Shown here piece by piece: positions 20,148 to 60,645 of a DNA stretch of 64,000 bases; the first letter of the stretch is position 1; every line of letters starts with the position of its first letter. The position numbers and the translations under genes are program-made. The stretch comes from Polytrichum commune (Eukaryota; Streptophyta; Polytrichopsida; Polytrichales; Polytrichaceae). The stretch is taken from the NCBI GenBank assembly GCA_950295325.1, contig OX485806.1, positions 58,957,169 through 59,021,168 on the forward strand, given 5' to 3'. The notes under the pieces were generated by a model. That model worked only from the letters and a program-made list of their open reading frames with translations. It searched no databases and was not told the origin of the DNA.

Positions 20148-20263
20148 CGTGTAAATAGCGATCGTGTGTCATTACACATCGAGTACCAACCACCACTAAG
20201 AAACAATACTAAAACATAACAATGTCACACATACACAACACACCTCGACAGAGAAGGAAGATA
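20148..20263. repeat. 117-bp direct repeat, left copy, TGTCG...CGACA ends
   Basis: Starts TGTCGTGTAAATAGCGATCG and ends CACACACCTCGACA-like. It is repeated almost exactly at 21557-21673. The TG...CA inverted ends and the length suggest a very short LTR (TRIM-like) or the edge of a larger LTR. Confidence 0.65.
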
Positions 20264-21556
20264 GTCAAACACTCATAAAAACTCTAAATCTCTTTTCAAA
20301 TGCACATAATGAGTTAAGCTATTTCTCACTCCACCACGGGAGAATCCAAGAGTGTCACGCACCTCTCCATGAGGAGTGCCCAAAACACCATGGGCACAAG
20401 GGGGACCCCGGAGTGACACCCGGGACTTGTGGCGCCGTTGGTGAGAGGGCCCAAGTGATCCTAGTGTGGGTGAGGGCCCCGGGCGTTGGGAACGCCTCCC
20501 ACCCACGAAGACTAGGAGGCACAAGGATAAGGCCATGAGTTATGCGTAGCTCATGGCGTGGTGATTCTAGAAAGCTCAAGATCACCTCAAGCGGAGGTGT
20601 GAGCTAGGAGTTATGGCCATTTGAGTGGGGCGCTGTCCTGGGACAGCGCCCTGGTACAGCAGTGCCTGGGAGTGATTCCCGGGACTGCCAAGGTTCAAAC
20701 AGGCATAACTTCCTCAGTACTTGCCCGAATGGGGCAAGTGAGGAGTCCATCGTCATCTACGTGAAGCGTAGATGAAGATGAAGTGGTTGGTTGTTATGAT
20801 CCGACATCATACAAGGAAGTTATGATGGTCTGAAGCTGCTGGGGGGGGTTCTAGGCCCAACAGCTAAAGGAAAATGTCCACTTGGCCCCAACTCTTGGTA
20901 GAGAGACAAGAGGTTGGTTGACGGTGGGGTAGGGGCCCCCCGTGAAGTCCTAGAGGCTTATATGGGTGAGGTGGTGTGGCCTCACCCACCCGAGGCCGAA
21001 CGGCAAGGCCTCCATGGGCATTGGCCCATTGTGAGGCCATAGTTGCCTAGTATGGTTCGGGTTGTTGTAGTGTTGCTCCGGCAATGCGATGATCAACATG
21101 GGATTGGACTTCCATGGATGGAAGTCCACCTCTAGGAATGGGTTACCGATTAAGGGGTGAGTCCCGAAAGCAAAGTAGGAGGGTTGGTTCCCTCCTATGA
21201 ACTATAAGGTCCGGGGTAGGGGGAGCTAATCATTAGCATGGCGGAATGCGAATGGTTAGCGCTCGTAACATTTGCTACAATTGAAAATTGGCAAGATTGT
21301 CAAGGGGGGCTAGCAAGGGTTGCGACAAAGAGTGTAAGTAGGGGGAGAAGAACTTAAGATTTTTTGCAAAAACATGCAATCTTCACATCACATAAGCTCT
21401 TTCCACACACTCACTCACAAGACTTGACTTGGCAAGAATGCCAAGCCAAGAAGGAGGCTCCTCACTTAGGAGCCTTCGTCTCCACATCTAGATTCATCCA
21501 TGCAAACCTAAATGGATGAAGCCCAACGGATAAGGTGCGGCCGCCGACGCCGCATA
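20264..21556 (-). repeat. Candidate 3' LTR segment of the methyltransferase retroelement, hosting solo LTR copy B
   Basis: The parts 20266-20352 and 21328-21551 together match 60323-60645 in the same orientation. The two segments flank the gag-to-PHD coding region on both sides, as LTRs would. The outer edge on the minus strand starts TGTTACGGTATGCGG (TGTCACGG in the right copy). The unit holds two hairpins: the arm AAGGCTCCT with a 5-nt loop, and the arm TTCATCCAT with a roughly 10-nt loop. LTR ends are not resolved because of the 117-bp repeats next to it. Confidence 0.5.
20353..21327 (+). mobile_element. Solo LTR, copy B (975 bp)
   Basis: The termini are TGTCACGCAC and GGTTGCGACA, with AAGAG at 20348-20352 and AAGAG at 21328-21332 as a perfect 5-bp target duplication. 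The uninterrupted target sequence is seen at 60420-60435 (CCAAGAGTGTAAG). It is the same length as copy A and in the opposite orientation. Confidence 0.9.
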
Positions 21557-21673
21557 CCGTAACAGTTGTCGTGTAAATAACGATCGTGTGTCACTGTAGC
21601 TCGAGTACCAACCACCACTAACAAACAACACTAAAACAAAGCAACGTCACACATATACAACACACCTCGACAT
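21557..21673. repeat. 117-bp direct repeat, right copy, next to a polypurine tract
   Basis: Near-identical to 20148-20263. On the minus strand the preceding bases read TTAAGGGGGCCA, a polypurine tract in the place expected just upstream of a 3' LTR, which would begin TGTCGAGGTG. This suggests the 117-bp unit is the LTR start or the whole LTR of the minus-strand element. Confidence 0.55.
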
Positions 21674-22005
21674 GGCCCCCTTAAGCTGACTATGGAGTCC
21701 CGCCAAGCAGCTAGGACCAATGCCAATCCAAAAGGCATGGATAATGAAATATTTGCTCCACAACTAACTAGTGTGGTGAATGTTATTCCAAGGAACTGTA
21801 GGCTGGGTGCAATGTGAGCCCCATCCTTAATCGCCTTTGATGTTTGGCCATCAAATTCCAGAGAATTAAATCCACTACCTCATGTTGATTACGTCTCTAA
21901 GCCATAAATCCTCATTTTCCATTTGGGCATGTATACAATGATGAAAACCACACAGGATCATTGGGTACGATTGGTGGAAACACCAAGTACCGAAGATCCT
22001 CAACA

Positions 22006-22137
22006 GCGATGACAACTCCACTATCCAGATGGTAGAGAAGTCAAGGGTGGCCTCAAGCATGTCATGTGCCAACCATGTTGACACTGATCACACAAGAGCA
22101 TAGTAGCCGTTCCATTCTTCTCTCCACACACAAAACA
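22006..22137 (-). pseudogene. PHD finger fused after integrase
   Basis: The frame reads CFVCGEKNGTATMLLCDQC, then HGWHMTCLRPPLTSLPSG, a TAG stop at 22023-22021, and WSCHRC. The pattern C-x2-C, C-x2-C, H-x2-C, W-x-C-x2-C is the Cys4-His-Cys3 signature of a PHD finger. Known PHD fingers bind histone H3 tails. Here it occupies the place where gypsy chromoviruses carry a chromodomain, so a targeting role for integration is a reasonable inference. The stop codon falls before the last cysteine pair. Confidence 0.85.
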
Positions 22138-23345
22138 TGGAAGACCCTGTGGCACGACAGCTAGTTCAGGATGAACTATACCCTCAATGGGTAGATGACA
22201 TGGGGCACAGTTTTTGGAATGCTCGCGACACTCCTTGCCATCCTTGCCTTCCAACAATAACAAACCACTCGGCAACACCTCCTTCACCCGAAGGATAGTG
22301 CGCCCCGCCCTGACATCCAATGTTGTAGGCGCCTCACGTTGGAGATAAATATAATCCCCCTGCCGGAATCTCCGCAACTGAGGTTGGTAAGCACCACTGC
22401 GAATGCATGCACAATGCAATATGTCACGGTGTTGAGCAATGGACAAATTCTCCATGGCCATAGGCATGGCCCTCTGGAAGAATTGATCCCGCTCCTGCAA
22501 ATACTCTGCCCAAATGTTTGGGTCATCCAAGTCCACAACATAAACTAGTTTTTCCCAGATAGAACTCGAGAGTATAGGCTCACGTCCATACAACAACTGA
22601 TACGGGCTGTAGGACGCCAAAAAGGCATGCCTACTAAATCGATAGCCCATAGCAATCCAAGGCAACATAAGGTTCCAATCCCGGTGGCTCCCTCGAAATA
22701 ATCCATACTTCCTCGAGCCACGCTTGGTTGTCTGAACAACCCGTTCAACCAAGCCATCCGCCACTGGATGATCCCGAAAGGTGGTGCGGTGATCTATGAG
22801 CGCCTTAGTGCACAAGTCCTCAAAAACACCGAGGAACTTCCTCCCTTGGTTCATCAATACCTCAGCCGGTGCTCCAAAACGTGCCAACACACAATTCAAA
22901 AAGGGGCCGTGGCCAACTCTGCAGAGTTTTGGGGTAAAACAACAAGCTCAATCCACTTGCTAAAATGCTCCACCATCACCAACATGTACTTTGCTCCACG
23001 TGGCGTGACAACCAACGGCCCCGCAAAGTCCAGCGACCAACGGTAGCCCAATCCCATGATAGGTAAGGGCTATAACTAAGGTGACAAGGTGTTAAAGCTA
23101 GACCTGACCCGGTCACAAACTTCACACCTCCCGACATAAGCAGCCACCTACTGATACATGCCAATCCACCAATATTGGCCATGCAACATCGAATGTGTCA
23201 TGCGTATGCCAAAATGGCCAAGTTCCTCGTGCACTTGTCACACCAAGGAGGCCCTTTGATCCGGTCTAGGGACAATACGCCTTGTCCCATCCGACCACAA
23301 TCGAAATAACAAACCGTTCTCCCAACGGACCCTTGTTATTCGATG
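22138..23345 (-). pseudogene. Integrase of the methyltransferase retroelement
   Basis: The frame has a zinc-binding module (HEELGHFGIRMTH... CEVCDRVR, with one internal stop) and the core motif WSLDFAGPLVVTPRGAKY. The second catalytic position reads N instead of D (VLMNQGRKF), and the third has a conserved E (HPVADGLVERVVQT). A C-terminal module with FRQGDYIYLQREAP and RVKEVLPSGLLLLEGKDG follows. The frame changes near 22900. The D-to-N change and the stops indicate an inactive copy. Confidence 0.8.
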
Positions 23346-23439
23346 TCCAATCTTGTCCCTTTCCATTACCGAGGTAGACGAAAGAAAGGTCCCCTGTTGA
23401 AGCTTTTGCAATTCGCCAAACCCAAGAAAGCACGAAGTC

Positions 23440-24125
23440 TCGGCACATCGACTAGTGCTGGAATCTTCTCCAAGGCGTCCACCTTAGCTTGTTGTACCCC
23501 AAGACCTCCTGGAACAATCATATGCCCCATTTATGCCAGTCGGTCATGGAAAAACTTGCATTTGCCGTGGTGTAAGCGCAATCTCCAGTGCTGCAACCGT
23601 TCAAAAACGGCTTGCAGATGCCTCACATGCTCTTGTGGTGTCCTGCTGAAGATGATCACATCGTCTATGTAACACCGAGTACAGGGCAAGCCAGAGAGGA
23701 CCTGGTCCATCACCCTTTGAAACTCAGCAGGTGCATTATTCAGGCCAAATGGAAGAAACTTCCAATGGTAAAGTTGATCCTTCCCATCTTGATCAACTCC
23801 CCAAAATGCGGTTTTCACCCGGTCTCCCACAAGTAATGGGAGCTAGTGATAGCCAGATCTCAAGTCCAACGTGCTAAAAACTCGAGCAAATCCGAGGGCA
23901 TCGAACAACTTCTCCGGGATTGGCATGGGATACCGATCCGACTTGGTCTTCCGGTTAACTGGACGGTAATCCCCTCACATCCGCTTCTCCGTCCAATTGC
24001 CAAAGATATTCTTCTTCGATGGCATAACCGTAGCACAAGCATACTCCCCGTTGGAAAGTTCGATTAACCTTGCTGCCAAGAATTCTCGGCAACGAGTCTG
24101 AATGCCAATCCGCTCAGAAACACTG
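23440..24125 (-). pseudogene. Reverse transcriptase of the methyltransferase retroelement
   Basis: Recognisable motifs are NGEYACATVMPSKKN, DYRPVNRKTKSDRYPMPIPE, STLDLRSGYH, AFWGVDQ, WKFLPFGLNNAPAEFQRVMD and the catalytic YIDDVIIFS, followed by the thumb (LRLHHGKCKFF; QQAKVDALEKI; LRAFLGLAN). Stops interrupt the frame near 23840 and 23975. After the thumb only about 100-200 bases separate it from the integrase, so the RNase H domain is almost wholly deleted. Confidence 0.8.
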
Positions 24126-24249
24126 AGTCTATAAGGTCTCCGAAAAATTGGATGGTCGTCCTCAAACTGAATGTGGATGGGTTTTCCCTTATAACCTATG
24201 TGGTTTCCCTCTCCACTAGAAGAAAACCACCTGGTGCTGGCATGGACTC

Positions 24250-24540
24250 TAATTGCTAATGAGAAGAGGGGGCATTAACCATGCCCCCAACATCTGTGCT
24301 AGCAATAAAGTCCATCCGTTCTTCACCACCACCAATATGTGATGATGAAGCCACCACCGGAGGTGAAGAAGCCGAAGCAGTATAAACCCGTTGAACTCGG
24401 AGCTCCTCCATGACCTGCTGCTCGAATCGAAAGATTCGTTCGGCTTCTCCAACCGTGACCTCAATTCCTTCCTCCATGGATGTGGACCGCTGTGCCCCCT
24501 GACCAGAATCCTCTGCCCCCAGAGACAACAACTAGTCACC
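24250..24540 (-). pseudogene. Spacer between methyltransferase and RT
   Basis: An open frame encodes MEEGIEVTVGEAERIFRFEQ and QVMEELRVQRVYTASA, a charged spacer with serine-rich patches. It stays in the frame of the methyltransferase C-terminus at 55030-55200 if the CACTA element and one AAG copy are left out, apart from a TAG near 24533. This supports one original reading frame across the insertion. Confidence 0.6.
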
Positions 24541-24561
24541 ATGATGCCGTTGCAATGTAAG

Positions 24562-25340
24562 CACTACAACAAAATCGACAAAAAACGACTTTGTTTATGA
24601 TTGTTATTTGAGTCGTTGAGAACTACAATGACTTTTAATTTTTGTGTTATTACAGACGACTTGTAACGGACAGACAATCATTGGAGACGTGACGTGGGAA
24701 CCTGAACTCTATAGTCATATAGGGTAGTCGTAAACATGTTGAGCAGACGTAGCAAACCGTCATGACGCAGATTTCACGTGGCATTCACGCCACGACCTCA
24801 CAACCAGGTCATCATATGACATGGCATCCATGCCACAACCTCACATCCGGGTCATCATCTGAGTTGGCTCTCACGCCATGTCAACAAACACGTGGCTTCC
24901 GAGCCAATTGGCCATGTCATCATGACAAGTGGGCAACTAATATAATGCCACGTGTCCATAAATAAAGTTCTTGTGTAGTCATTTGCCGGTTGTTAAACAT
25001 GACATGGCGCATACATGAAGCACGTTGGGTTTTGCCATGTGGTCATGTGTATCCGAAACGACTATTATGTTACTATTGAAGGACTACATGCTAGTGACAT
25101 GTGCACGGGTTTAGGCCATCTATGAGCACATTGAGCCTTTGTTTATTCTTTCATTAGTGGGACATTTCAGTGTGTGTGCTGAGGTGTCAGGGGTACATGT
25201 GTCTTTTGTAATGACTCAGACCTCCACGTGGATGCATAAATGACTAGAATTCGACATCAGGTACACATTTTTATGCTTTTTGTGCGGCCATGATTGTACC
25301 ACGACGGATTTGTGTCATGCTATTTTGACTGCGAGGCGAC
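24562..25340. repeat. CACTA left subterminal region
   Basis: Repeated short ACGACT and AATGACT motifs (24585, 24655, 25055, 25335, 25365) match the form of subterminal transposase-binding sites in CACTA elements. A 46-bp tandem duplication at about 24777-24868 carries CATGCCAC, CAACCTCACA and GGTCATCAT blocks. No coding potential is seen. Confidence 0.6.
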
Positions 25341-25738
25341 TTTGAATGGTTAACAACGACTTTACTGCAAAATCTGTGCAGTCATTGATATACACTCAAC
25401 ATCCATCTCAACTTGACAGTGACTACAAAATCTGCGAAGAACTCGACCTCAACGACGACAAAATTGCTACTCAATGCATGCCAATGACAATGAGAAATTG
25501 CGTTAACAATACCTTTCAAGCACGCAACTACCATTCAAGCATTAAGGAGGGAGACTCAATGGGTGAGTCGGGATCATATTTAAAAAAGAATACATATTTC
25601 AAATTTATTGTTCAGTTCCCAACAAAATGCGTGGGCGTGTTCTTGAGTGGGTTCAGAGTTTACAATGCGGAAGCCCTCTATGTCCTCCCTAATAAGTACG
25701 TGGGAGGAAATTCATGCTGCTCTCAGGTTCCTTTCATT

Positions 25739-26074
25739 TCACAGTGTGCATCCTCCCACCACATCTTTCACTACCCATTGGTCTCCGTCCTCATGTGGAT
25801 ATGCAAGTTTTACGTCACCTAGGTAAGCAGTGGTCACGTCCACTTTGTAGCAAAACTCCGGAATGACCTTAAAGTGAAACTTATCCACATCCCCCACACC
25901 GTTGATTTTACCAATGGCCACCTTCCGTCTCTTGTTTTTCGGGCTCATCATATGCACGGATTGCCCAACATTGAACTGCACCCATACACCATCCACAAAA
26001 CAATCAATGGCATAACTCATACAATGTAAGTATCTAATTAGCAATGTGTCAGCAATCAAGGCTTCATGTGGCAC
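25739..26074 (-). pseudogene. C-terminal exon of CACTA TNPA-like gene, DUF8039-like
   Basis: The frame has RRKVAIGKINGVGDVDKFHF, VIPEFCYKVDVTTAYLGDVK and AYPHEDGDQWVVKDVVGGCT. The sequence of a VAxGKI strand, an IP-x-GCY-x-V-x-V segment and a closing V-x-DAVG-x2 is the layout I know from C-terminal domains of plant transposon proteins annotated as DUF8039. It lies at the 3' end of the left-hand gene. Confidence 0.55.
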
Positions 26075-26169
26075 TAACCAATGTTTTCATTGCCCTCCAA
26101 TGTCACTTCCATAATGGACTCAAAAACCCACACCAAATAATGCCTACGACATTTATACGGTTCTAAAAA

Positions 26170-26330
26170 TGTTCAGGGATGGATTGCTTAAGGACTGCTG
26201 AATGATTGCCTAATGACTGCTAAATCACCGCTAAATGACTGTTGAATGACTGCTAACTGACTGCTAAATGACTGCCGAATGACTATTGTCTGACTGCTAA
26301 ATGACTACTAAATGACTTCCAAAAATGTTC
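26170..26330. repeat. Array of TGACTGCTAAA-type motifs
   Basis: At least ten spaced copies of AATGACTGCTAAATGACTG-like units (period 10-12 bp). Similar arrays occur at 31260-31400, 49389-49540, 50195-50300 and 53505-53580, always between exons of the CACTA genes. Confidence 0.75.
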
Positions 26331-26469
26331 ACGGATGGATTGCACAAACTGGGCGTGCAGGCAATGTTGTATTGCCTTATGTGCTATCCCCTGTTTTTGC
26401 ACCCCTTCCCCACAATTCCATCCCGGGAACCACCTACACATGCAAGTAAAATCCAAATTCAATTAGTCA

Positions 26470-27519
26470 TGGACCAACTAGGAGGAGGAGGGCAATGTTT
26501 ATTATGAACTTCAATTCCACAACTCCCCTCACCTCCTAGAGCTTCCACAGTAGTCTTTGCCATGTTCTTCGAAAATTGATTCAGTTCACACACCCCTGCT
26601 TGCATTCTGGATAGATTGCAAATGGACCAAAAACTTCCAACGTCCTGGTGCACATAGAGGCCTTGAAGAGCTGGCCATAATTTTTGCTGTAAGTAATCTT
26701 TGTCCTCAAATAAATCCTTCAGATTTGTAACATAGAAAGGGGGGGGATGATCACATTCGATTGTGGGTTGAAGTCCATCCTAGGCTCATGGTGGTCTATG
26801 ATAACAGTGTTGGTAGCATCCCAACATGGCCATTTCTTCCAAACCTTGATCAAGGGTTTCCCCCACAATGAAACCTTATCACTTTTTTTAATTTACTCGC
26901 AATCATTTGCTGACCACGTGAAAATTGGTATATGGCCTTTCAAATGTGAGAACACTGGTAGGATCTCCCGTAGAACCTCTTTCATATACTCATTACTCTT
27001 TGTACCCCAAAATGCTATTTTGAACATTTTAAAACACCGGCCCAAGAACTTCATCATCCATGGCCTGAACACGAATCTACGTGTGTAAGTTTTTTTGGTC
27101 ACACGGATGTTGCAGTTTGGATTTGGTTGAGTCAATAGGCTGGTATCCAGAAGTGTACTATGCACATTGAAGATCAAAAGTTTGGTTTGATTGTAGGGTT
27201 CCGCTATCGAATTCATACTAAAACTTAGCGGCGGACTCACCTGACCACCATGCGTACTGTTTGAACCACCAATGTCACCTATCTTGCTTGGTGACATGAT
27301 CTTGGGGTTTTTGCTCACAGATTCCGGAGATTCTCCCTTCCCCACTGACGCAACAAGGGATGCATCCTCAGCCAACACAACAACGTCTCCGCCCTCTATA
27401 TGCTCACTCTCCACAATTTGCTCCAGCTTTTTCCCTCCTCCCAAACTCCCACCTCCACCACTGATGCGCTCCCCACTCCCACCTACCTTTTGTGCCACTC
27501 CCCTAGTTGCGTTTTCCAT
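26470..27519 (-). pseudogene. FCP1/NIF-like pseudophosphatase domain in CACTA TNPA-like gene
   Basis: After a G-rich linker the frame reads KLLIFNVHSTLLDTSLL, RRFVFRPWMMKFLGRCFKMF and KIAFWGTKSNEYMKEVL, then (beyond a stop at about 26890) SLWGKPLIKVWKKW, NTVIIDHHEPRMDFNPQSNV. This follows the FCP1 homology order: DxDxT loop, R-PG-x3-F, the WSS-like segment, K-x-L-x2-W, LIDD. The nucleophile motif DxDxT reads N-V-H-S-T, so both aspartates are lost, and LIDD reads IIDH. FCP1 enzymes dephosphorylate the RNA polymerase II tail; this version would bind rather than catalyse. A C-run frameshift near 26740 follows. Confidence 0.75.
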
Positions 27520-28247
27520 ATTCCCTCCCTTCCCCCCCCACTCCCATCCACTGCAATGTTGGGAGGGCCACTGTCATGTTTTACAACCCCACCTACAACA
27601 GCTCCAACTTCCTGCCTCCCATCATCCGGGGTTATTGGCTGCCCAGTGGCCACCGCTGCTGCAGCTCGCCTCTTCATACCTCCCTTCGCTGTCCTCCCTT
27701 TTTTGGGGGCCTTCTTGCTTGCACGGCCCTTGCTCCCCACCTGACCATTCTCTTACGACACGGTAACCCCCTTCAACTTAGCATCTTTGCTTCTAGTCAA
27801 CCTAGTATATACTAAAGGCTGGTTGTCATCTTCACTATGATGGTCTGTGTCATCCACCACATCTATTGGCAACGTAATGGAGGTTCCAATGCCAACCGGG
27901 CGGGATTGGGCTTGATTCTCGCACGTAGACTTAGGAATGCTTCCATGGATGCCCTCGTTGTTGACTGCCATCTTGGGCTCGCTCACAATGGTCCTCGACT
28001 CCAATTTAGTCATTAGGCTCGTCAACATAGTAGCCAGGCTATTCAACGTCAACGTGTTAGCTTTCAAAGCTTGCTCATTGTTCTGACTAGTCAATAACAT
28101 CTCAGACAGTTGATGCCTAAACTCGGCCTGGGTTAGCTCCATAGCAGCAATGCGTGCTGACATCCTCCCTGACAGGGCTTGCTGTGCACACCACAAACAA
28201 GGACTTCCAACCTTAGAATGGGATCCAGTTAGGGTCTGCCCTAGCAT
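27483..28247 (-). pseudogene. Middle exon of CACTA TNPA-like gene (coiled coil, basic linker)
   Basis: The upper part reads GRMSARIAAMELTQAEFRHQ, LSEMLLTSQNNEQALK and TMLTSLMTKLESR, a heptad-rich helix such as TNPA-like proteins use for dimerisation. An acidic patch (DDTDHHSEDDNQP) follows, and in a second frame the basic stretch KGRASKKAPKKGRTAKGGMK and RRAAAA, likely a nuclear signal or DNA contact. A stop at about 27755 and a frame change separate the pieces. Confidence 0.55.
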
Positions 28248-28259
28248 TCATTTGAATAC

Positions 28260-28560
28260 AATTTCACCACTACACAATGACACATAATCTACTGACTGCA
28301 GCTACACAATGACTCATTAAGCACTAGGTGCAAGTACACAATGACTTAAATACAACTGTCAATACTTTGCAACAACGACACATATAGCGGGATATACAAC
28401 TACATAATGACACATAAAATACATGATACAACTAAACAATGATACATAAAGCATTGAATTATGACTGCACAATGACCAATACTTGCTACTGGAAACAACT
28501 ACACAATGACACATATTGTGTAGGATACAACTATAGAATGAAACATTGATCACTCCATAC
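28260..28560. repeat. Intron with ACAATGACACATA-type repeats
   Basis: Loose copies of ACAACTACACAATGACACAT recur about every 30-50 bases. They share the ATGAC core with the TGACTAGTGAA arrays elsewhere in the element. Confidence 0.6.
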
Positions 28561-28599
28561 ATACAACTGACCAGGAACCAGTAAAATGCACATGCAAAC

Positions 28600-28785
28600 A
28601 CTTTGTGGATCTTACAGAGGTGCATGCCCTTGTCTGCTCTGAATCCTGCAGGTCCTCCGCTATTTCCGTAATCTCGGGACTCCTCTGTCTCTTCTTCTTT
28701 TGTCATCATGAACACGCGCTCAATTTTTGGCCCACATTTCAAAGTCACCAAGCCCAACTCAACATAATGGTGAAGGAACACTAGA
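28600..28785 (-). pseudogene. Exon of CACTA TNPA-like gene
   Basis: The frame HHYVELGLVTLKCGPKIERV, then MMTKEEETEESRDYGNSGGP, ends at a GTAAGATC donor near 28612. It lies between the Transposase_24-like exon and the coiled-coil exon. An acidic region; no motif. Confidence 0.45.
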
Positions 28786-28821
28786 AAATCATTACTAATC
28801 ATTGCTAAACACAACACTTAC

Positions 28822-50300: not shown

Positions 50301-50465
50301 TTAAATGGGTGGTGGGAACCCTGTTTGGAGAGCACACATTATAGTCACTGATATGTGCATAGTGGCAAGCTTGCAGGGGACATGAACGGAGGAAGACTCC
50401 CTTTTAATGACATGAGACGGCAACAACATCGCGACGGCCGTCTGTGAAGGAGGGAGCAAGAGAGG

Positions 50466-50590: not shown

Positions 50591-50683
50591 AGGGGGCCTG
50601 GAGAGAGGGACGGCTCCGATGAGGAGTGGGAACAGGAGTTTAGGAGACCCTCAAGACCACATGACGGACACATCGACGAAGGA

Positions 50684-52119
50684 TTGGATATGCATGCCAT
50701 GCTCAAGGAAGCATTCCAGGAAATTGATGAGGCACCAACCCACCCCCCTACAGTGGAAGAGCAAATTGCGGACATAATAATGGGTGCATTCACAGTTGTC
50801 GATGAGCTGGCCGATGATGAAGTCCCACTTTCGGACGATGAGTCAGAGGATGAGCCTTTGGGGGAAAATGGTGGTAGTAATGCAGAAGAACACAATTATG
50901 GTGATTCCCACGATATGGAAGAAGCCATGGAGGAGCTGTACCATGGAGCCAAGTTTTCCATATTGGCGGTCACGATATTGATAATGACTTTGTGTACGAT
51001 CCATGGTGTAAGCAACAAATTTGTGGACATGTTTTTCACCCTCTTCCGTGAACACCTTCTACCCAGTGAGAATATGTTACCCAAAAACCTTCATGCTGCA
51101 AAAACCTTGATTCAAAAATTATGATTGAATTACAATACAATTCATGCATGCCAAGTAGGTTGTGTTTATTTAGAGGGCAATATGAAGGTGCCACTAGTTG
51201 TTCGAAGTGCAAGAAACCATGTTACAAAGATGAGGCCAAAAAACAGAGGCCTTGAAAAGTACTTAGACAGTTTCCCCTGATTCCAAGACTAAGACGTATG
51301 TTCCGTACATCGGCAATATCTGAACTCATGGTGTGGCATGCAAAGAACACAAGCACAGATGGATACCTAAGACATCCTTGTGATTCAAAGGCATGGAAAC
51401 ACGTACATGAAAATGTAGATTCTAGTTTTGGCCAGGAAGACCGTAACATTCACCTAGCAATGGCAGCCGATGGAGTGAACCCTTGTAAGTTGCAACGTAC
51501 CACTTGGAATACGTGGCCGGTAATGTTGTTGAATTACAACATACCCCCATGGTTGACTACGAAGAAATTTTTTATTATGTTGGCGCTGCTAATTTTGGGG
51601 AAACAATCTGTGACATCGCAATTTTTTGATGTGTACTTGGAACCATTGGTTGAGAAGTTGATGCAATTGTGGAAGGGTGTGGCTGCTGACGACGTGCTCA
51701 AAGAGTTGGGATCAAGGGCTTTCAAACTTAGAGTAGTTTTGCTATGGACCATCTATGATTTTCCCGGTTATGGGACAGTTGTAGGTGTTGCACATCAAGG
51801 CTATGTGGCGTGTCCTGTTTGTGGGCCTGATTTCAAAGGTGAACATTCTGTTGAACTTGCAAAGCAAACCTATACAGACACGAGGCGGTGGCTAGCCCAT
51901 GACGATCCATGGAGGTCTCCGGGAATGAAGGACCACTTCAATGGACGTATAGAACTTCGAGGGAAACCCAATCGTGTTACTGCAGATGAGCAAGTGCAGC
52001 GAGCCACCGAGTATCACACCTGGTTGGATGAGGGCAACAAAGAAGGCGCCGTTGGAGATCCCTCGAAAATACATGGTGTGAAAAGGAGGAGCATTTTACA
52101 CAACGTGCCTTATTTGAAG
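50684..52119 (+). pseudogene. CACTA TNP2 transposase core, first part
   Basis: The acidic N-terminal region (ADDEVPLSDDESEDEP) leads into Tnp2: NKFVDMFFTLFREHLLP, CSKCKKPCYKDE, FPLIPRLRRMF, DGYLRHPCDSKAWKHV, LAMAADGVNPC and LLWTIYDFPGYG. The last two carry the first and second catalytic aspartates of the DDE triad. It ends HNVPYLK at a GTAAAT donor. A TGA at 51122-51124 and a frameshift near 51180 break it. TNP2 cuts the transposon ends. Confidence 0.85.
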
Positions 52120-52526
52120 GTAAATGATGCAACTCCTTTGACTCTTGATTATTGCATGTATCGGCACACGCATCGGTATGTACAACCAATCACAGAGTAA
52201 ATAAAGGCTCAATGTGCTCACAGATGGCATAAACATGTGCTCATGTCATGAGCTTGTAGTTGTAAAGCAGTCGCAGAATAGTCGTTTACGATACACATGG
52301 GTGCATGAGGGAACCTAGCGTACATGACGTCTGGGACATGTCTGGTTCAACAACTGGCAATGACTACACAAGAACTATAGAAATGGACACTTAAAATCGC
52401 CCTCATAACACATACAATACTAGTCATTTTCCTCATAAACGATGCAAATGATAGTCATAAACCAAGTCGTGAATTGTCGATTTTGTTTTAGTGTTTGAAC
52501 TAACCAATATATGACTATATTGGCAG

Positions 52527-53425
52527 GATCTGCTCATACCAAACACGTTGGATGTTATGCATTGTGAGCAAAATTTTGCGAAGAATATTTTGAAGACCGT
52601 CACCGGACATAAGGACACGGTAAAGGTCCGGTGAGACTTGCAACGTAGAGGCATCAGGTCGCATTTAGGGCTCATTCCCCATCCAAAGAAAAACGGGAAA
52701 ATGTTGAAACCAGCCGCATCATATGTGTTGACCACCGATGAGTTTCAAATTTTTGCTAGTAATATCGAGAACTTGAAGACACTGTCAGGACATGTTTCCA
52801 ACATGGCTCAATACATACGCAAGAGGAAATACGGGGATTTGAAGTCACATGACTACCATGTACTTATGCAGCAAATCATGCCGCTAGCCTTACGAGGACT
52901 TTTAGAACCTGGTCCACGAATGGCGGTGATGAGGATTTCCAAAGTGTTCCGAAGAATATGTGATAGTGTTTGGAACCCATTAGAGTTTGCCACTCTACAG
53001 GTGGACGTTGCACGGAGCATGGCACTTCTAGAAATTCATTTCCCTCCTTCATTTTTTGACATTATGACGCACTTGCTATATCACCTTGTTGATGAATTGG
53101 ACATGTGTGGACCTGTCTCGACAAGGTGGATGTATCCTATTGAAAAATACATGAAAACATTAAAGCACTATGTTTGGAACATGGCAAGACCGGAGGCCAG
53201 CATGGCGGAGGGTTACGCCCGGGAGGAATGCCTAGGTTTCATCACTGAATATTTACACAAGTTTGAAGTGGTCGACCGCCGAGTTTGGGATGCAGATGAG
53301 GAGTACGGAGATGCTGAGGAGGTGCTGGAAGGGGCAGGAACAAAGTACTTGATGACACCAGTATTGAGAGATCTTGCCCACCAATACGCATTGACAAATG
53401 TCTCCCTCGTGGTACCTTGGCATAG
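52527..53425 (+). pseudogene. CACTA TNP2 transposase, third catalytic motif and DUF4218 region
   Basis: The acceptor TATTGGCAG is followed by LDVMHCEQNFAKNILKTV, which holds the catalytic glutamate (normally DVMHVEKN). A TGA at 52632-52634 replaces a probable CGA. DUF4218-like sequence follows: LKSHDYHVLMQQIMPLALRG, LEIHFPPSFFDIMTHLLYHL, GPVSTRWMYPIEKYMKTLKH, and RPEASMAEGYAREECLGFIT. It ends at the donor CATAGGTGAG. Confidence 0.85.
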
Positions 53426-53504
53426 GTGAGCCTGATTGTGTTTTTCCAGCTTGTACACTCTCATGTGAGTGTGTCCTGTTGTTTTGGAATACATGATTGC
53501 ACGT

Positions 53505-53580
53505 GAAAATGACTAGTGAATGACCAGTGAATGACTACTGTATAACTAGTGAATGACTACCCCATGACTAGTGAACAACT
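53505..53580. repeat. Intronic TGACTAGTGAATGAC array
   Basis: Five to six units of AATGACTAGTGAATGACCAG form within the intron between the DUF4218 and DUF4216 exons. Confidence 0.7.
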
Positions 53581-53598
53581 AGTTGGATGTGCAAGCAG

Positions 53599-54325
53599 TG
53601 GAAAGAGGAATAGGCAAAAAATCCCAACATTTGCACATTTGAAAATTGGATTAAAGATGGAGTGCACAATCACCCTATGGACCCGAACGATGCGGATGAC
53701 ATGGACAGGGTTATGATGTGCAGCAGACCGTCACAGTTAGCTACACGATACACAAGGATGAAGGCGTATGAAAACCACTTCCGCGTGGAGGACCAACAAT
53801 CCATGACGCTCAAAAATTACGACAGTGGTGTTGCCTCTATGTTTCACATGCCTTCAGTGGGTTCGGAGGAGGTGACATTGAACTATGTGGGAGTACTAAA
53901 GGATATATTGAAATTGAACTATGGGCCTCTTCGTACACCTGTCATACTTTTTAGGTATGAGTGGATGAAACAATATGACAACTGTGGCAACCCTACGTAT
54001 GTAAGAGACGAGGCTAGATTCATGGTCGTGAATTTCTGCCACAAGGTTCCAAAGATGTTGGAGCCATTCATATTTCCAAGCCAAGCAACACAGGTATTTT
54101 GGTCAGACAAAGTGTGGAAACTGGGGTGGAAAGTATGTCTTGGTGAAGGAGGCACGCTCCCAAAGACATCAACAGAGCACAACAGATGTCTTCATGACCA
54201 CCACCGAAGAAGCGGATGGCATGCAATTGGCGAACCATGTACCTCCCCCGCCCAGCACAACGTCATTGGTGGGAGCCATAGAACTATCAGATTCCGATAA
54301 CTCCTTAGCACTAGCTAAATTTTAG
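53599..54325 (+). pseudogene. CACTA transposase C-terminal exon, DUF4216-like
   Basis: After the acceptor GCAAGCAG the frame continues as FENWIKDGVHNHPMDPNDAD, CSRPSQLATRYTRMKAYENH, DSGVASMFHM, LNYVGVLKDILKLNYGPLRT and VILFRYEWMKQYDN. This matches the DUF4216 layout (x-PS-x-x-x-x-Y-x-x-Y-x-x-x-G-x-x-F; V-L-F-x-C-x-W). A frame change near 53640 and another after 54100 are present. It would complete the transposase. Confidence 0.75.
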
Positions 54326-55022
54326 GTATTTGTCCTTACAAAAGCCTAGCTGGGCTTACAAATGTCCTTAGTGGGTTGTACTCAACAATACTATGACTGA
54401 ACAACAACTCCACTATGACTTATACGTCCACGTCATTGAGTATGTGGCATGAAAAATGAAATGATTTGTGCGTGCCCGGTGCCCGCCATTGAACTTATGA
54501 TTTCAGACCTCCATCATATGTGCACCTTGGCAATGAATATCTTTCATATACGTCAATACATGTACTAAGCTTATGTCATCGATGACACGACATGCCACCT
54601 CATCGTGCTGACACATGTTTAGTGACCAATATGTTGTGTTTGCCACCATTATGTTGTATCTCACATGTGTACTCATCCTTTGTTGTGGGCATATTCGTAC
54701 TTACAATGTGTTGGAGAATCATAGTTAAGTATGGGTTGGTCAAGGGCAACACATAAATGACTGCACATTTGCTACGTCAGAATTGTCTTGGCACGTCACA
54801 CCGGCATGGATGAATTGGACGATGAATAACTAACCATAAATCAATATTTGGGGTTGTCGCTTGCACATTTCATCCATGAGTCATTTCAGTAACTGAACAA
54901 TGACTGAACGCTTATACACGTCATCCCAAATTCAGCAGGCATGTGAATCAGTCATTTACTGAGTTCTTTAGGATACGTAGTCATTGATACCATGGTTGGA
55001 ATGGACAAGGTTTGTTGTAGTG
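54326..55022. repeat. CACTA right subterminal region
   Basis: Repeated AATGACT/AGTCATT motifs (54415, 54880-54910, 54950, 54980) lead to the terminal inverted repeat TTTGTTGTAGTG at 55011-55022. No coding sequence. Confidence 0.65.
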
Positions 55023-56319
55023 AAGGCATAAACCAACAGTCCACACCATGGTATGAAGATCCATGGTTTGGCCCAACACGAAGCATCGTTGGCCCTCAGA
55101 AAGGCCAGGAGCTGCGGTGGTGCCAGTGCGGAATCCCATGGCCCGCTCCCGTTTATCAGCCAATGGTTCGGTGTGGGTTTTGGTGTGAGTATCCCACACC
55201 ATACCCGGGCCCCGATCGCGGAATGCGAATGACTGTGGAAATGTCATAAAGGTGGAAAATGCCCGCCGTGGTGCCCCCACTTTGTTGACCAATGCCAACG
55301 GGAATAAATCATCTCGAACAACCGGCAAAGAGGTCCGGTTTGGATCCAAGAGGTCCGGTTTGGATCCAAAATGTCATCCACCTTCTGATCAAAAGGTGGA
55401 GGCACTGCAAAAAATGCTTCAACTAAAGTAAATGACGGTGTGAGGTTGGTCCAAATCCACCGAGGCCGGTGGGCATAAGAACCAATGCTCGCGGCATCCA
55501 CAAAAATGGGATCTCCAAGGTGTTGATGAACATAATGACCGCCTTCCAACACCTTGTCCCGAGAGTCTCCCAACAAAGGTACACTCTCGAAGATATACCA
55601 TGGAGGAGAAGGTTGGTGGGTAAACCACCACTGCATAAGCCGGATGAGGTCCCAAAAAAAGCTAGACTGGGATCCTCTAAACCTCGGCCTGCTCCAGCAC
55701 GTGAGTGGCCTTGGTATGGCCATCCCGCAATCACCATATCCATCGGACCCAAGTGTCGTAAGTCGACCTCACTGATGAGTATGATATCACGAGGGAGACG
55801 TGAAAAACACCCACGAATGGCAATTGGGTGTAACTGCTAGGGGTACAATACCATCAACTGATGAAGATGGTGACGAGCCACATGGGTGGACACTAGAGAG
55901 TTGTCCACATAGACATACCGTCTGACCGTGAGGCCAGCCTCCAATACGCCTGCTAAGCCTGTGCCGATGCCCCCAAATAATTCCACCAAAGTGAGCCCTG
56001 CATCAAGCGGCCGCCACATAATTGGGTGTGCCAACGCCAATGGGCTATCAAGTATGACCGGTGTCGTAGAGGTGAGAGAGAGGACAATGTCCTCGCATCG
56101 CCGGAATAAATCAGCGGAATCGTGCCAGGGAGGAAGGGGATCTTTGGGATGGCGCACCAATGCACCCTTAGGTGCCATATCCCATTGATCGTCTGTACTC
56201 CCCATGAATGCCAGTGACTCCTCCAACAATGGAGAACTATAAGGCAAAGTATCCATAATAGCACCACATCCAAAGACCATGGATAATGGTGCTATGGTCG
56301 CGGCCGCCGTGAATGCCAC
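55023..56319 (-). pseudogene. Cytosine-5 DNA methyltransferase domain in retroelement
   Basis: Motif order fits C5 methyltransferases: I, LVELFGGIGTGLAGVLEAG (SAM-binding F-x-G-x-G); II, YVYVDNS; IV, AGWPYQGHSRAGAGRGLEDP; VI, FESVPLLG (ENV usual); VIII, SYAHRPRWIWTNL; X, GFRTGTTAAPGLSEGQR and VLGQTMDLHTM. The catalytic PCQ of motif IV reads P-Y-Q (Tyr codon 55716-55714), so this copy cannot form the covalent intermediate. Frames change near 55830 and 55350. Known family function: transfer of a methyl group from SAM to cytosine C5. It sits between protease and RT. Confidence 0.85.
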
Positions 56320-56421: not shown

Positions 56422-56748
56422 CTAACCAACTAAAATGTCATAGTCGGTCGCATCCGTCACCGCACACCTAAAAAGAAGAGGTGCGGGTGGATCTCCAGGT
56501 TTCACTCGGAAGCTAAGTTGTAATGGCTCCCGAATATAACCCGTGGCCCGCTCCACGTGACCAACGGATGTGACAATAATGAATGGACAAGGAGCCAAGT
56601 CCTCGGCCGCCAATCCAAACTCCTGGGCAAGCCTCTTGCCGATCATAACAGGTTGTGCCCTTGAATCCATCATCACACAACGGGGAGCAACCCGAGTGGC
56701 ATTGCCCCTAGTCCGACTGACCACCAAAATGTCAATATCATTCACCAT
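56422..56748 (-). pseudogene. Aspartic protease of methyltransferase retroelement
   Basis: The frame has CVMMDSRAQPVMIGKRLAQE, where DSR replaces the catalytic D-S/T-G, then a mid strand FIIVTSVGHVERATGYIREP and the closing FRCAVTDATDYDILVG. The retropepsin layout is clear. It is placed directly before the methyltransferase. The G-to-R change at the active loop suggests loss of activity. Confidence 0.75.
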
Positions 56749-56916
56749 ACGCAGGACACCGGGTCGAATGCCGCGGCGTTCGCGAGCAGGTCTAGCAGCT
56801 ACATCAGAGAGATAAGCTGCTCCCGCGGATTGTGGTGAGGCATAAGACGTGGTCGACCCCTTGTCATATGAGGTGTGTGAGTCAAAAGAAGCAATGGTAT
56901 CTGCGGCAAGCCTTGC

Positions 56917-57750
56917 TCACCGTTTGGCCACTTCATCGGGGTCTTTAGAAGTAGGGATGTCCGTGGTGGCTTGGGCCACGGTCAGAGAAGGTGAGGATGC
57001 CTTCCCTTCCAAAATTCTACCCGCTAAGTAGAAAACCTTAGCATGTTGGAACTTTGGTGGCGACCACTCCATCGCCGCAAACAAAGGGGTGTGCAACACA
57101 TTTGATGCCAAAGTATGCACCATGCCAGTCGCCGGATTCGAAGCCTCTAAGCTCGAATGACGACCACTTGCAGATTGGACCCCATCCGCCAATCCAAAAG
57201 ATAATGGCAGACCAATCTGATCCGCGGGACCATTGCCCGGAGCTCGTAAACTATCCACAGACTCCCCTATGGTCGAGGGTGTGGCTCGTGACACGGATTG
57301 AGCCCGTGTCACCGCTGTGGAACTCATCATTTCTCCCGAGGCTCTGAACATATAATAATCCGGAGTGGAAGAACTAGCTTTAGCGGCGGAGGAAGACGGT
57401 GAGTCTAAGATTTGGCCGGATGAGGTCAAACTTTTGAACCTCTCCTCCAATGTTCCAATCTTTGCCTCCAACGCCTTCTCCCGATCGGAAGAAAGACGTT
57501 TCTCTGGATGGAGAGCAAAGCAGTTCTCCACCGCGTGATTGTTCCGCCCATAATGGAAACACGTCAACTATTTGGGTAAATATTTACCCGCCCCCTTCGT
57601 CGAATCCTTCGCGGGAACAAATGGTTTCCATTTCGGATTACCTACGGTCTAGGCTTGCCTTTGCTTCGAAGGACAATCTTTCTTAGCATGGCCCGCATGC
57701 CTACAAGACCAACAATGCAAGGTCTTGTCCACCTCTGCCTCCGCCAAACT
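56917..57750 (-). pseudogene. Gag C-terminal part with zinc knuckles
   Basis: One knuckle, CWSCRHAGHAKKDC (C-x2-C-x4-H-x4-C), lies at about 57715-57674. A second, CFHYGRNNHAVENC, at about 57560-57520 has Y for the second cysteine. Downstream is a serine-rich spacer with a heptad-like EKALEAKIGTLEERFKSL and MVHTLASNVLHTPLFAAMEW. It would bind element RNA. The frame is open for 216 codons in 57567-56917. Confidence 0.7.
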
Positions 57751-57779
57751 TGTAGTCGCGATCGAAGCCTTCCGGAATT

Positions 57780-58810
57780 TGCTAGAATCCACTAGCAAGA
57801 ATACCAAATCAGTGGCATCGTGTTAATACAATGCACGTCACACTGCTCCACAATGACAAATGCCTCTGCGAGTGTCGTCCGACCACCAAAGTTCATAATG
57901 ATCTTGGGTAGCGCCAAGTCAAGGAGGAGTTTGTCACTCTTAGACAAAAAATACCTTCACCAGTTGATTTTCCGCAAACACAACTCGAGATTCTCTGGCA
58001 AATTTCGCCAACCTCGTATACATGGTACGAGGTGTATCGTCATTCTCCCGTCTAAAATCTTGTATCCGCTACATCTGGTTCCGACATAAACCTTTATACT
58101 CCTCATGTAGATGCAGCTCAAATGCCCGCAACGGCTCAAAAATTGGCGGAATCCCCAAAGAGGCTAAAGCCGCCTGGATAGCGTTGCATAACGGGAGAGT
58201 GGAAGAATGGGACTCGACGTATTCGCCGCAGCGGGAGTAGAACCCTTATCCTTGAGTTCACCAGGAAAAACTCCCTCCACATCCACTACATATACTCCCT
58301 CCGGCACCTCCGACTTAACCTAAGGGACGGCTATGAAACTAGAAGTTGCGTCTTCCTTCAATGCGGATACAAACTCAACCCGAGTCTCCCAGTACCGCTC
58401 GACCTGGCGCAACTCCATCCAATGAGCTTCCGTCCACTACACATAAGTCTGGAGAGCCTCGTGCTCCAAATCTTGGGACAGTAGGTCGAACACATATCAG
58501 TCATTCAAATTAGTATTGCGTTGACGTTTTTCCCTCATCCATGTCCTGAACCGAATCTTCCAATCTTGCAAGGAAATGGTCCCCGTTCGACCAGAAAATT
58601 GGTCACGGATGCCACCTCGCGTCTCCTCCTCCATCTCGTCAAAGGATCTGACCCAAAGGATGTGAGACCAAATGACAGTCCCCAAGCCGATTTAGGCTGA
58701 AAACCCTCGTTGGATGCTACCACTGGTTCAACATCCAAAAGGTCCGAGGATCGGCCTTCCGATGATGTCGGAGGCGGAGAATGATAGTGTTGAGTCCGGG
58801 TTGTAACCAT
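57780..58810 (-). pseudogene. Gag N-terminal and capsid region
   Basis: The ATG at 58810 starts MVTTRTQHYHSPPPTSSEGR. In other frames the gag capsid pattern follows: SLQDWKIRFRTWMREKRQR, FELHLHEEYKGLCRNQM and RIQDFRRENDDTPRTMYTRL. Several stops and frameshifts interrupt it (for example near 58500, 58320, 58080). It is the expected first product of the element. Confidence 0.6.
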
Positions 58811-59511
58811 AACCCCACAATAGGCTGGTCACGGAACCAACAAACCAAATGAATTAGTATTTAGGTACAAAGAAAAAAATGGTCAAAGGTAACCTGCACC
58901 TGCAACCACCACCAAAACTTATGGTCTGTTGGTCATTAATCCAGCCTCACCACAAGTGAAAACAAGCACCATCCACTTGGTGCACAAACAAAGGTCCCGC
59001 CGGTCATTAATCCGACCTCACCTCCATAGTATCCTATCACAATTTAGGACAACACAAAATGAGGCAGTGCTAGAACACTCCAGCACTACAGCCCACCACA
59101 TGGGAAGGTACCACAACAAAATACAAGGAACAATGCAATAACAACATTGGATCCTCTTCCCCAAATAACATTTAAACATAAATTAAAAGCGACCGGGACT
59201 AACCGGCACCCGCCTACGGTTAGTGGTCAAAATAAAAAGCCCTGTTGCTTAGGAAAAAGAAATGCACATGTCTTATCCTTCCCTTACAATCCATAATTCA
59301 ATGCTTAAGGAAACATGTGGAACATGTGTCCATAAACACAATTTGACCTCAACATAGGTTGAATGGTGATTCCACATGCCACACAACTCCCAGTGGCAAT
59401 CCCTTAGCAATCTCGTGCTCCACAATTTTTCAACAAATTTAATGTCCGAAGGGAGGCTGCCGCAACCAAGAATATTATCTAAGAAATTAACCACAAAGAA
59501 GATTCTTCGTG
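58811..59511. other. Probable 5' leader of the methyltransferase retroelement
   Basis: Non-coding. A block CGGTCATTAATCCGACCTCACC recurs in part (58933 and 59002 regions, GGTCATTAATCCRRCCTCACC-like), giving a roughly 70-bp duplication. No primer binding site or LTR end could be identified before the rRNA fragment. Confidence 0.4.
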
Positions 59512-59839
59512 TGACTAGTTATTAGGTTGAGGTCTTGTTCATTAACGGAATTAACCAAACAAATCACTCCACTAATTGTTCATATTAATCATTACTCCGG
59601 TTCCGACGGCCGCACTCGCGCTACCTTGACCACGATCCAACTCCGCGTTTGTTAATTGCAACAACTTAAATGCACGCTATTGGAGCTAGAATTACCGCGG
59701 TTGTCGGCACCACATTTGCCCTCCAATGGATCTTCGTTAAGGAATTTAAATTGTATTCATTCCAATTACCGAACTTGTAAAAGCCGAGTGTTGTTATTCA
59801 TTGTCACTACCTCCCCGTGTCAGAATTGGGTAATTAACA
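59512..59839 (-). pseudogene. Composite 18S rRNA fragment
   Basis: On the minus strand three blocks match conserved nuclear small-subunit rRNA. The piece around GTTAATTCCGTTAA lies at about 59512-59570, a short piece with the complement of TATTAATCATTACTCCG at 59583-59610, and the 530-loop region (complement of GCTAGAATTACCGCGG, CCCTCCAATGGATC and TCACTACCTCCCCGTGTCAG) at 59630-59839. Normally these are hundreds of bases apart, so internal parts are deleted. About 85-90 percent similar to land-plant 18S by memory. It is not a functional rRNA gene. Confidence 0.85.
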
Positions 59840-60322
59840 GAGAATGTGTTATGTAACCGGTTGGACTTGCAAACACTCAATATCAACCGTTTACGCCCAA
59901 AAATCTCCCCGAACCTTGCTGCCTACAGTTTGTTGCCGACTGCCGCTGACTGCCACCGCAGTCTGCCGGACATGAGCAGAGGCCAGCAGAGGAGGGACGT
60001 TGGCCTCCTTTTTGTTTGTTTCTTGTTACAAATTTGATCCCTTTTGAGGATCAAGAATGCCCCCTTCACCTCCCACTTCACAACCTCATGCTTGTAGGCA
60101 ACTCATGACAAGAAATTCCGTGTAGTATTTAGAGATTTCTCACCACAATTCAAAATGATGTATAAACTTCACAAGTACACCTCTTTCTTCTTGTTGCTCC
60201 GCTAATCCGCGATGTTTGTCGTTTTCCACTTCACAATCTCGCCACCACTTGTCTTCACACTCCTTCTTGAGTGTTGTAGCTCAATATTTGAAGAAAAGAA
60301 AAGGAATCATGCATTTTTGCCA
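59840..60322. other. No gene recognised
   Basis: Sequence between the rRNA fragment and the candidate 5' LTR. A CCGACTGCCGCTGACTGCC-like short repetition at 59930-59960 is the only structure noticed. Confidence 0.4.
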
Positions 60323-60645
60323 AATGAAAAGGAAGAGAGTCAAACACTCATAAAAGCTCTAAATCTCTCTTCAAATGTACACAATGAATCAAGCTATCTC
60401 TCATTCCACCACGGGAGAATCCAAGAGTGTAAGTAGGGGGAGAAGAACTTAAGATTTATTGCAAAAATATGCAATCTTCACCTCACACTCACTCACAAGA
60501 CTTGATTTGGTAAGAATGCCAAGCCAAGGAGAAGGCTCCTCACTTAGGAGCCTTCCTCTTCACATCTAGATTCATCCATCCAAACCTAAATGGATGAAGC
60601 CCACTGGATAAGGTGCGGCCGCCGATGCCGCATACCGTGACAAGG
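60323..60645 (-). repeat. Candidate 5' LTR segment of the methyltransferase retroelement
   Basis: Matches 20266-20352 plus 21328-21551 in the same orientation. On the minus strand it begins TGTCACGGTATGCGGC. It retains the uninterrupted CCAAGAGTGTAAG site that holds solo LTR B in the other copy. The hairpin arms AAGGCTCCT/AGGAGCCTT and TTCATCCAT/ATGGATGAA are both present. Confidence 0.5.

Follow-up and report, generated by a model that had tools for sequence, protein, structure and literature searches.

Retrotransposon capture of cytosine methyltransferases was reported by de Mendoza et al. in 2018 (PMC5890265). The closest described system is KnitGypsy-Dnmt3 of Klebsormidium nitens, a Gypsy element with Dnmt3 in its Pol frame, DIRS-like repeats and a ratio of nonsynonymous to synonymous substitution rates (Ka/Ks, dN/dS below) of <0.2, which the authors regard as acquired in the lineage of K. 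nitens (PMC5890265). SymbioDIRS-Dnmt3 and SymbioLINE-Dnmt of Symbiodinium also carry a C5 cytosine methyltransferase and belong to the DIRS and LINE classes, neither of which is related to Gypsy (PMC5890265). Retrotransposon DNMTs were reported in the same source to methylate CG sites de novo; one type left DNA unmethylated in yeast, and RNA was suggested for it instead (PMC5890265). Here we analyzed a 64,000-nucleotide stretch of the Polytrichum commune genome (contig OX485806.1, positions 58,957,169 to 59,021,168; "the window"). It contains, from 60642 to 20145 on the minus strand, one decayed Ty3/Gypsy-type element with a methyltransferase of its own, split by a 30.5-kb CACTA transposon. 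This copy is a dead relic: its enzyme is broken, its RNase H is lost and it was hit by CACTA; the family to which it belongs is numerous in the genome and includes young copies. As a whole, the locus is probably best explained as a dead copy of a family that makes its methyltransferase at the level of Gag by means of a leaky stop, methylates its complementary DNA (cDNA) and integrates a permuted molecule.

The Polytrichum family has in common with KnitGypsy-Dnmt3 the Gypsy domains, an intronless Dnmt3 in a polyprotein and repeats of DIRS form (a likeness judged from a figure legend of PMC5890265). Purifying selection on the enzyme, reported there, is seen here in the subfamily of the window copy and is not significant in the other. 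In KnitGypsy-Dnmt3 the enzyme is said to be in the Pol open reading frame (ORF), whereas in Polytrichum it ends the gag-protease frame just before the sequence TAG-CAA-YYA. A PHD finger, 4-bp target duplications and repeat homogenization are added here, and the term PHD is absent from the main text of PMC5890265. The original prediction, made from the letters of the window alone, had correctly cited the 2018 report and had called the combination of parts unusual. A Gypsy element with a methyltransferase is not unique, since one with Dnmt3 and DIRS-like repeats was already known from Klebsormidium (PMC5890265), and the same kind is found here in Polytrichum and, by protein matches, in further lineages. 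With respect to the literature searched, the new features are the placement of the methyltransferase ahead of a leaky-stop motif, together with Gag, the PHD finger, target duplications together with split repeats, the homogenized repeats and the two gene orders. In that search, DNMT-bearing Gypsy elements were found reported in PMC5890265 only, and further papers may mention them; PMC9406493 and PMC8616336 contain no mention of Klebsormidium or Symbiodinium.

One element in two halves and its family

All parts of the element lie on the minus strand of the window, in the order gag, protease, DNMT3-type methyltransferase, reverse transcriptase (RT), RNase H (deleted), integrase and PHD finger. 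When the ORF1 of relatives, which comprises gag, protease and methyltransferase, was aligned with the right half by tblastn (P0010), the match ran from 58685 to 55023 and was broken by stops and by two frame changes within the methyltransferase. The P0010 matches flank the CACTA transposon at residue 1241: the right half stops at 55023, the left half starts at 24561, and the CACTA end CACTACAACAAA is found at both 24562 and 55022, with an AAG duplication on each side. The flank matches overlapped by exactly 3 bp in all four own-genome copies compared (e02, e09, e10 and e19), for example at 7745-7747 in e10; these are the bases AAG that the CACTA insertion duplicated. Therefore, the two halves belong together. 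The split was shown from these flank matches. The insert has the CACTA ends, the 3-bp duplication and the tnp2-type transposase of a CACTA (En/Spm) transposon, with the transposase encoded on the plus strand (Transposase_21, 1.9e-58). The predicted single element with an insert at 24562-55022 was thus confirmed, and its ends do lie near the predicted 20148 and 60645, with the exact positions 3 bases off, at 20145 and 60642. Besides its RNase H, the window copy has lost a stretch of about 120 nt on the upstream side of the RT match. No plasmid matched 55000-60700, and IMG/VR gave no hit for the patterns of P0005.

A search with profile hidden Markov models from Pfam, as had been proposed, supported these assignments. 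With the breaks set to X, DNA_methylase scored 28.4 bits (cut-off, 22), and none of the unbroken methyltransferase pieces alone exceeded the cut-off (best, 12 bits). RVT_1 reached 74.9 bits in one unbroken piece and 96 bits when read through, the PHD finger scored 32.6 bits, and rve gave a match that stayed under its cut-off of 32.6 bits. The RT-RNase H-integrase order of Gypsy was present in ORF2 of e09 and in relatives (Pfam). In the protease, relatives matched Asp_protease_2 or gag-asp_proteas mostly under the Pfam cut-off and above it in P0032. Together with the alignment of relatives, the Pfam matches bear out a C5 methyltransferase between protease and RT and a PHD finger after the integrase; the 55-kb segment matches retroelement polyproteins rather than a host gene.

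To describe the family, places with methyltransferase similarity were collected by a Pfam search of the 408-Mb assembly. A total of 123 places were scored out of 353 candidates, with open frames of up to 1386 amino acids; the broken window copy was not among the 123, a few of which could be other C5 methyltransferases. All 24 places checked belonged to the element family (20 copies that were read, of 13-14 kb each, plus loci L001, L004, L007 and L008). Likewise, 44 RT-integrase-PHD places were scored out of 4024 candidates. At 31 of these, a listed methyltransferase place lay 826-1127 nt upstream on the same strand, and 4 more followed an ORF1 place (37 scored of 982 candidates), so that, among the places listed, at least 35/44 adjoin the upstream part and the two parts do not always occur separately. 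Intact relatives were found, as both frames were fully open in 7 of the 20 copies (e04, e07, e09, e10, e13, e14 and e16). In these, ORF1 had 1366-1386 amino acids, and ORF2, with RT, RNase H, integrase and PHD in the same frame, had 1045-1048 (stop to stop). Two subfamilies, the window's subfamily and subfamily 2, are about 55% identical in ORF1. A genome with several fully open copies is a place to test retroelement self-methylation.

Among long proteins, 43 matched the methyltransferase (7991 candidates sharing the most words were scored) and 66 matched the integrase-PHD part (2813 candidates). Named hosts were Marchantia polymorpha, Sphagnum magellanicum, Sphagnum fallax, Closterium, Monoraphidium neglectum and Tetrabaena socialis, the last two of which are chlorophytes; the Klebsormidium nitens relative matched with its integrase-PHD part only (P0054). 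Two gene orders were observed: type I, the kind found in the window, is protease-methyltransferase-RT-RNase H-integrase, and type II is RT-RNase H-methyltransferase-integrase-PHD. Trees of the methyltransferase and of RT-RNase H-integrase were built from 4 own copies and 12 relatives that combine methyltransferase, RT and integrase in a single protein, leaving out proteins without RT, integrase or a long methyltransferase match (e.g., Closterium P0048). Both trees separate types I and II (96/93 and 98/97), and many forks inside the types are unresolved. This topology fits joint inheritance of the methyltransferase and RT-RNase H-integrase since the split of the types; one capture with a later move and two captures would agree with the trees equally. 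A kind of element described in one charophyte (Klebsormidium) is extended here to a family that has two gene orders and has relatives in Sphagnum, Marchantia, Closterium and two green algae.

Split direct repeats and the integrated form

Tyrosine-recombinase retrotransposons of the Ngaro/PAT type have split direct repeats in the order A1-ORF-B1-A2-B2. The Polytrichum element has the same split direct repeats, but with a DDE integrase, TG..CA ends and 4-bp target duplications. Both outer ends were seen in 18 of the 20 copies (e01 and e11, each with one end missing, were left out); 15 of the 18 had the arrangement A-ORF-B-A-B and 3 had A-ORF-B, and none had A-B-A-ORF-B. Counted as the fifteenth was e06, whose second A has about 20 extra nt near its start and which the script printed as A-ORF-B-B. 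The target duplication was exact in 16/18 copies and agreed at 3 of 4 bases in the other 2. In e04, e05 and e08, a single A and a single B surround the frames, with exact 4-bp duplications. Such A-ORF-B copies (3/18) may derive from one-unit circles or from B1-B2 recombination, which leave the same arrangement.

The B1/A2 junction read GACA-GC-TGTC in 6/6 copies printed, a palindrome of both element ends (GACAGCTGTC), and GACA-AC-TGTT in the window; at the A2/B2 junction, the end of A is joined to the start of B. Among variants seen at least twice in 15 copies, those in both repeats of a copy outnumbered the others 45 to 6 in A and 19 to 2 in B, once-seen variants, mostly post-insertion changes, being excluded. 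In the same copies, 0 of 38 columns were repeat specific. The common variants are spread over the whole of A (positions 13-396) and also occur in B, and the two A repeats of e14 share one internal duplication. Variants common to both repeats fit copying of the long terminal repeat (LTR) type with a B-A unit, followed by permutation. From this anatomy, namely, the G-rich tract before B and the homogenization of both repeats, reverse transcription would treat B-A as the LTR unit, and the integrated molecule would be permuted, with a cut at the B/A palindrome.

The original prediction had placed the element between similar flanking repeats, which stands, and had read them as plain LTRs, which we rejected because the repeats are split. 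No common terminal repeat is present at the outer ends, whereas a strict LTR element has two identical ones; the TG..CA ends, short target duplication and DDE integrase (rve domain) are of the LTR type. Split repeats, direct or inverted, are a trait of DIRS/Ngaro elements, but in place of a tyrosine recombinase and no target duplication we found a DDE integrase and duplications. A simple origin from a 2-LTR circle was also rejected as a full account. When permuted, such a circle should yield A-B-A-ORF-B as well, and its absence (0/18) leaves the integration step unexplained.

In the tip-refilling model of DIRS/Ngaro elements, missing tips are restored from the B1/A2 junction. Here, an RNA without the A1 and B2 tips would be refilled from that junction, with a DDE integrase replacing the tyrosine recombinase. 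This would agree with the A1-ORF-B1-A2-B2 order and with a junction that equals the joined ends plus 2 nt, and it would account for the unseen A-B-A-ORF-B. However, the variants common to both repeats lie along all of A and in B, not just at the tips, and the internal duplication of e14 is in both A repeats. As the repeats are homogenized over their whole length, we rejected tip refilling as a full account and regard it as a possible but doubtful explanation. Split repeats together with target duplications raise the question of how a DDE integrase picks its ends.

The methyltransferase and the stop codon behind it

The window methyltransferase extends over three frames, with motif I (LVELFGGIGTGL), motif IV (WPYQGHS), ESVP, HRPRW and motif X, which reaches 55023. 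Motif IV reads WPCQGHS in relatives, so that the catalytic Cys is Tyr in the window; with this change, a stop and the frameshifts, the enzyme is broken. Its best solved relatives are DNMT3A/B. In the family, the methyltransferase has the C5 motifs I, IV, VI, VIII and X and a DNMT3 fold (from a structure model based on 32 sequences; a first model from 8 sequences, with a predicted local distance difference test score [pLDDT] of 42, was poor and unused). Of the 47 relatives whose methyltransferase match covers at least 300 residues (those with shorter matches were left out), 46 retain the catalytic Cys, and P0029 has a gap there.

Selection was estimated without e01, e03, e11 and e15, whose ORF1 is interrupted, and for the group values also without e08, a near copy of e09. 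The dN/dS of the methyltransferase was 0.20 in the window subfamily (4 copies and 6 pairs, which are not independent), 0.55 in subfamily 2 (11 copies, 55 pairs) and 0.11 between subfamilies, where dS was saturated. In the same order, the values were 0.07, 0.12 and 0.04 for RT and 1.07, 0.55 and 0.61 for the tail after the methyltransferase; for gag they were 0.19 and 0.38, the value between subfamilies being not computable, and for the PHD end 0.39 in subfamily 2 and 0.08 between subfamilies. Single methyltransferase pairs of the window subfamily gave 0.24 for e02/e09 (p 2e-8), 0.17 for e09/e10 (p 1e-12) and 0.20 for e02/e10 (p 1e-7). Purifying selection on the methyltransferase, which the original prediction had proposed to look for, is thus clear in the window subfamily; subfamily 2, the copies of which are too alike, shows no significant constraint.

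The methyltransferase could instead be a passenger: a domain taken from a host that now serves Gag as a structural or RNA-binding part, or methylates RNA, without acting on the element's cDNA. Five subfamily-2 pairs without significant constraint (dN/dS 0.53-0.80, p 0.12-0.43) and the retrotransposon DNMT type that was inactive on DNA in yeast, for which RNA was suggested (PMC5890265), speak in its favor. Against it stand the retained catalytic Cys, the low dN/dS of the three window-subfamily pairs, the C5 motifs with the DNMT3 fold and the de novo CG methylation reported for such DNMTs of retrotransposons (PMC5890265), and we consider it unlikely.

The last open stretch of ORF1 (1114-1386 amino acids) reaches the ORF1 end in 16 copies (e01, e03, e11 and e15 were again left out), and TAG CAA YYA was found there in 16/16, with TTA in 6, TCA in 9 and CCA in 1. 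ORF2 follows in the same frame beyond the TAG and is open over 1045-1048 amino acids in 9 of the 16. The sequence UAG-CAR-YYA is the type I readthrough motif and stands between the upstream product and its extended form in tobamoviruses, benyviruses and pomoviruses (PMC5382211, PMC3542737). In contrast to these viruses, the present case is a retrotransposon with a methyltransferase on the upstream side, and readthrough is inferred from the motif. A stop followed by CARYYA was found at 0/34 other ends of frames of at least 250 amino acids, and it follows 23 of 3118 TAG triplets in the stretches read, these 16 included. Because copies within a subfamily are closely related, the 16 cases are far from independent; a stronger point is that both subfamilies keep the motif though the tail before it is only 33% identical. 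Eighteen relatives (P0003-P0005 and P0009-P0023), available as protein sequences only, end 77-137 residues past the methyltransferase, consistent with the same stop, and P0032, P0036 and P0038 have methyltransferase and RT in one frame. A literature search for CARYYA readthrough in retrotransposons found nothing.

We infer that ORF2 is expressed by readthrough and that the element's own cDNA is methylated. Ribosomes would mostly stop at the TAG, giving Gag-protease-methyltransferase, and a small share would read through to the full polyprotein. With mostly stopping, the methyltransferase would be made at the Gag level and carried into the particle; the leaky stop predicts that a particle contains far more methyltransferase than RT. 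The enzyme could then methylate the element cDNA prior to integration and mark new copies in a methylation-reading host, and the PHD finger may steer the integrase to a chromatin state. The element might, as the original prediction put forward, tune its own silencing. Only tentatively do we propose the same for a retrotransposon lineage spread through the green lineage, with a Gag-stoichiometry de novo methyltransferase via a leaky stop, packaged to methylate the cDNA, LTR-type reverse transcription with B-A as the LTR, and permuted integration with a DDE cut at the B/A palindrome that would yield split repeats with target duplications. If true, this would be a self-methylating particle and an integration route not known to us for Gypsy elements.

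Expression of ORF2 via re-initiation, a subgenomic RNA or splicing, with an incidental TAG motif, appears improbable. A Met is present at ORF2 residue 14 in the three subfamily-2 copies examined (e04, e07 and e13). In the three copies examined from the window subfamily (e02, e09 and e10), however, none precedes residue 117, which is 11 residues ahead of the Pfam RT match, and the shared frame and motif in 16/16 copies, with 0/34 at other frame ends, also speak against such expression. The idea that a methyltransferase-ending and an RT-starting element lie side by side by chance, to which the 30 kb between the halves in the window alone might point, is refuted by the copies and can be practically discarded, given the 3-bp overlap in 4/4 copies, the 35/44 adjoining places and the single frames of P0009, P0010 and P0005 that span the junction.

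Besides the integration step and the five subfamily-2 pairs, several results weigh against the explanation by leaky stop, cDNA methylation and permuted integration. The dN/dS of the PHD end is 2.26 in the window subfamily (2 synonymous and 14 other changes, 3 pairs), and that of the e10/e19 methyltransferase pair of the same subfamily is 0.40 (p 0.16). P0001, a short match outside the 47 relatives, has Tyr at the catalytic Cys like the window. No classical transfer RNA primer site was recognized after A1 by eye in six copies. Within-copy repeat differences showed no clear CG excess (6/44 transitions, versus 8.9% of sites), and mutation context was rejected as a sign of methylation, as it gave no clear signal. 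Finally, the 20 copies read were picked for long open frames and are a biased sample.

Coordinates and neighboring features

Table 1. Parts of the element in the window, from its 5' to its 3' end
Feature	Coordinates	Strand	Basis or remark
Probable 4-bp target duplication, right copy AGGG	60643..60646		3/4 bases as at the left end
Repeat A1, element 5' end, starts TGTC at 60642	60326..60642	-	87-90% identical to A2; same repeat in window-subfamily copies
Leader, from A1 to the gag frame; holds an 18S ribosomal RNA fragment in the window copy	58850..60325	-	
gag, zinc-knuckle-like motifs, stops inside	56917..58685	-	tblastn P0010/P0009, 38-52% identity; zinc knuckle under Pfam cut-off
Retroviral-type aspartic protease region; DSGA of e09 is DSRA here	56422..56916	-	alignment to relatives
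DNMT3-type C5 cytosine methyltransferase, motifs I-X over three frames; catalytic Cys to Tyr (WPYQGHS)	55023..56019	-	relatives P0003-P0018
CACTA transposon within the methyltransferase reading frame; transposase on +	24562..55022		CACTACAACAAA ends, AAG duplication, Transposase_21
C-terminal tail of the methyltransferase frame (ORF1 end)	24259..24561	-	P0010 matches at residue 1241 on both CACTA sides
Leaky-stop context TAG CAA TTA, ORF1/ORF2 boundary	24250..24258	-	TAG CAA YYA in 16/16 copies
Reverse transcriptase; following RNase H deleted (about 727 nt)	23411..24196	-	RVT_1; 78-85% identity to P0053/P0052
Integrase (H2C2 zinc domain and DDE core), frameshifted	22140..23410	-	Integrase_H2C2 47.7 bits, rve 27.5 bits
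PHD finger, C-terminal, cut by a stop	22021..22137	-	PF00628 8.4e-08
Repeat B1; G-rich tract before B1 in copies	21567..21672	-	88.7% identical to B2; 94-96% to B of window-subfamily copies
Repeat A2, with a 972-bp insert inside	20251..21564	-	match to A1
972-bp insert in A2	20356..21327		8-bp duplication
Repeat B2, element 3' end, ends GACA at 20145	20145..20250	-	106-bp pair with B1
Probable 4-bp target duplication, left copy AGAG	20141..20144		3/4 bases as at the right end

The 18S ribosomal RNA fragment in the leader of the window copy lies at 59678-59856 on the minus strand (RF01960, 113.7 bits) and has a 394-position jump in the model; it was not reported in the 12 other loci searched, most of which are 5' halves of copies. 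A pair of small nucleolar RNAs, SNORD14 and snoU36a, lies directly upstream of copy e14 (L035:140-383). The relative with Tyr at the catalytic Cys, P0001, is from a metagenome and 77% identical, and its Tyr could reflect shared decay or recurrent change.

Further copies of the 972-bp element are found in the window at 9339-10314 and 28853-29792, which are 94% and 79% identical to the insert in A2, respectively. Inside the CACTA transposon, arrays of an 11-nt unit like AATGACTGCTA, possibly subterminal repeats, are located at 26168-26329, 31274-31435 and 49365-49559, and a retrotransposon gag (1.6e-09) is nested at 36257-37855 on the plus strand, with inverted partner sequences at 62.8-64.0 kb. 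Another Gypsy-type element, unlike the first, occupies 2860-7230 on the minus strand; it has an integrase, and an RT was found by tblastn at 5385-4231. A satellite-like array of 149-nt and 244-nt units with a higher-order pattern (392, 541) extends from 14371 to 18001.

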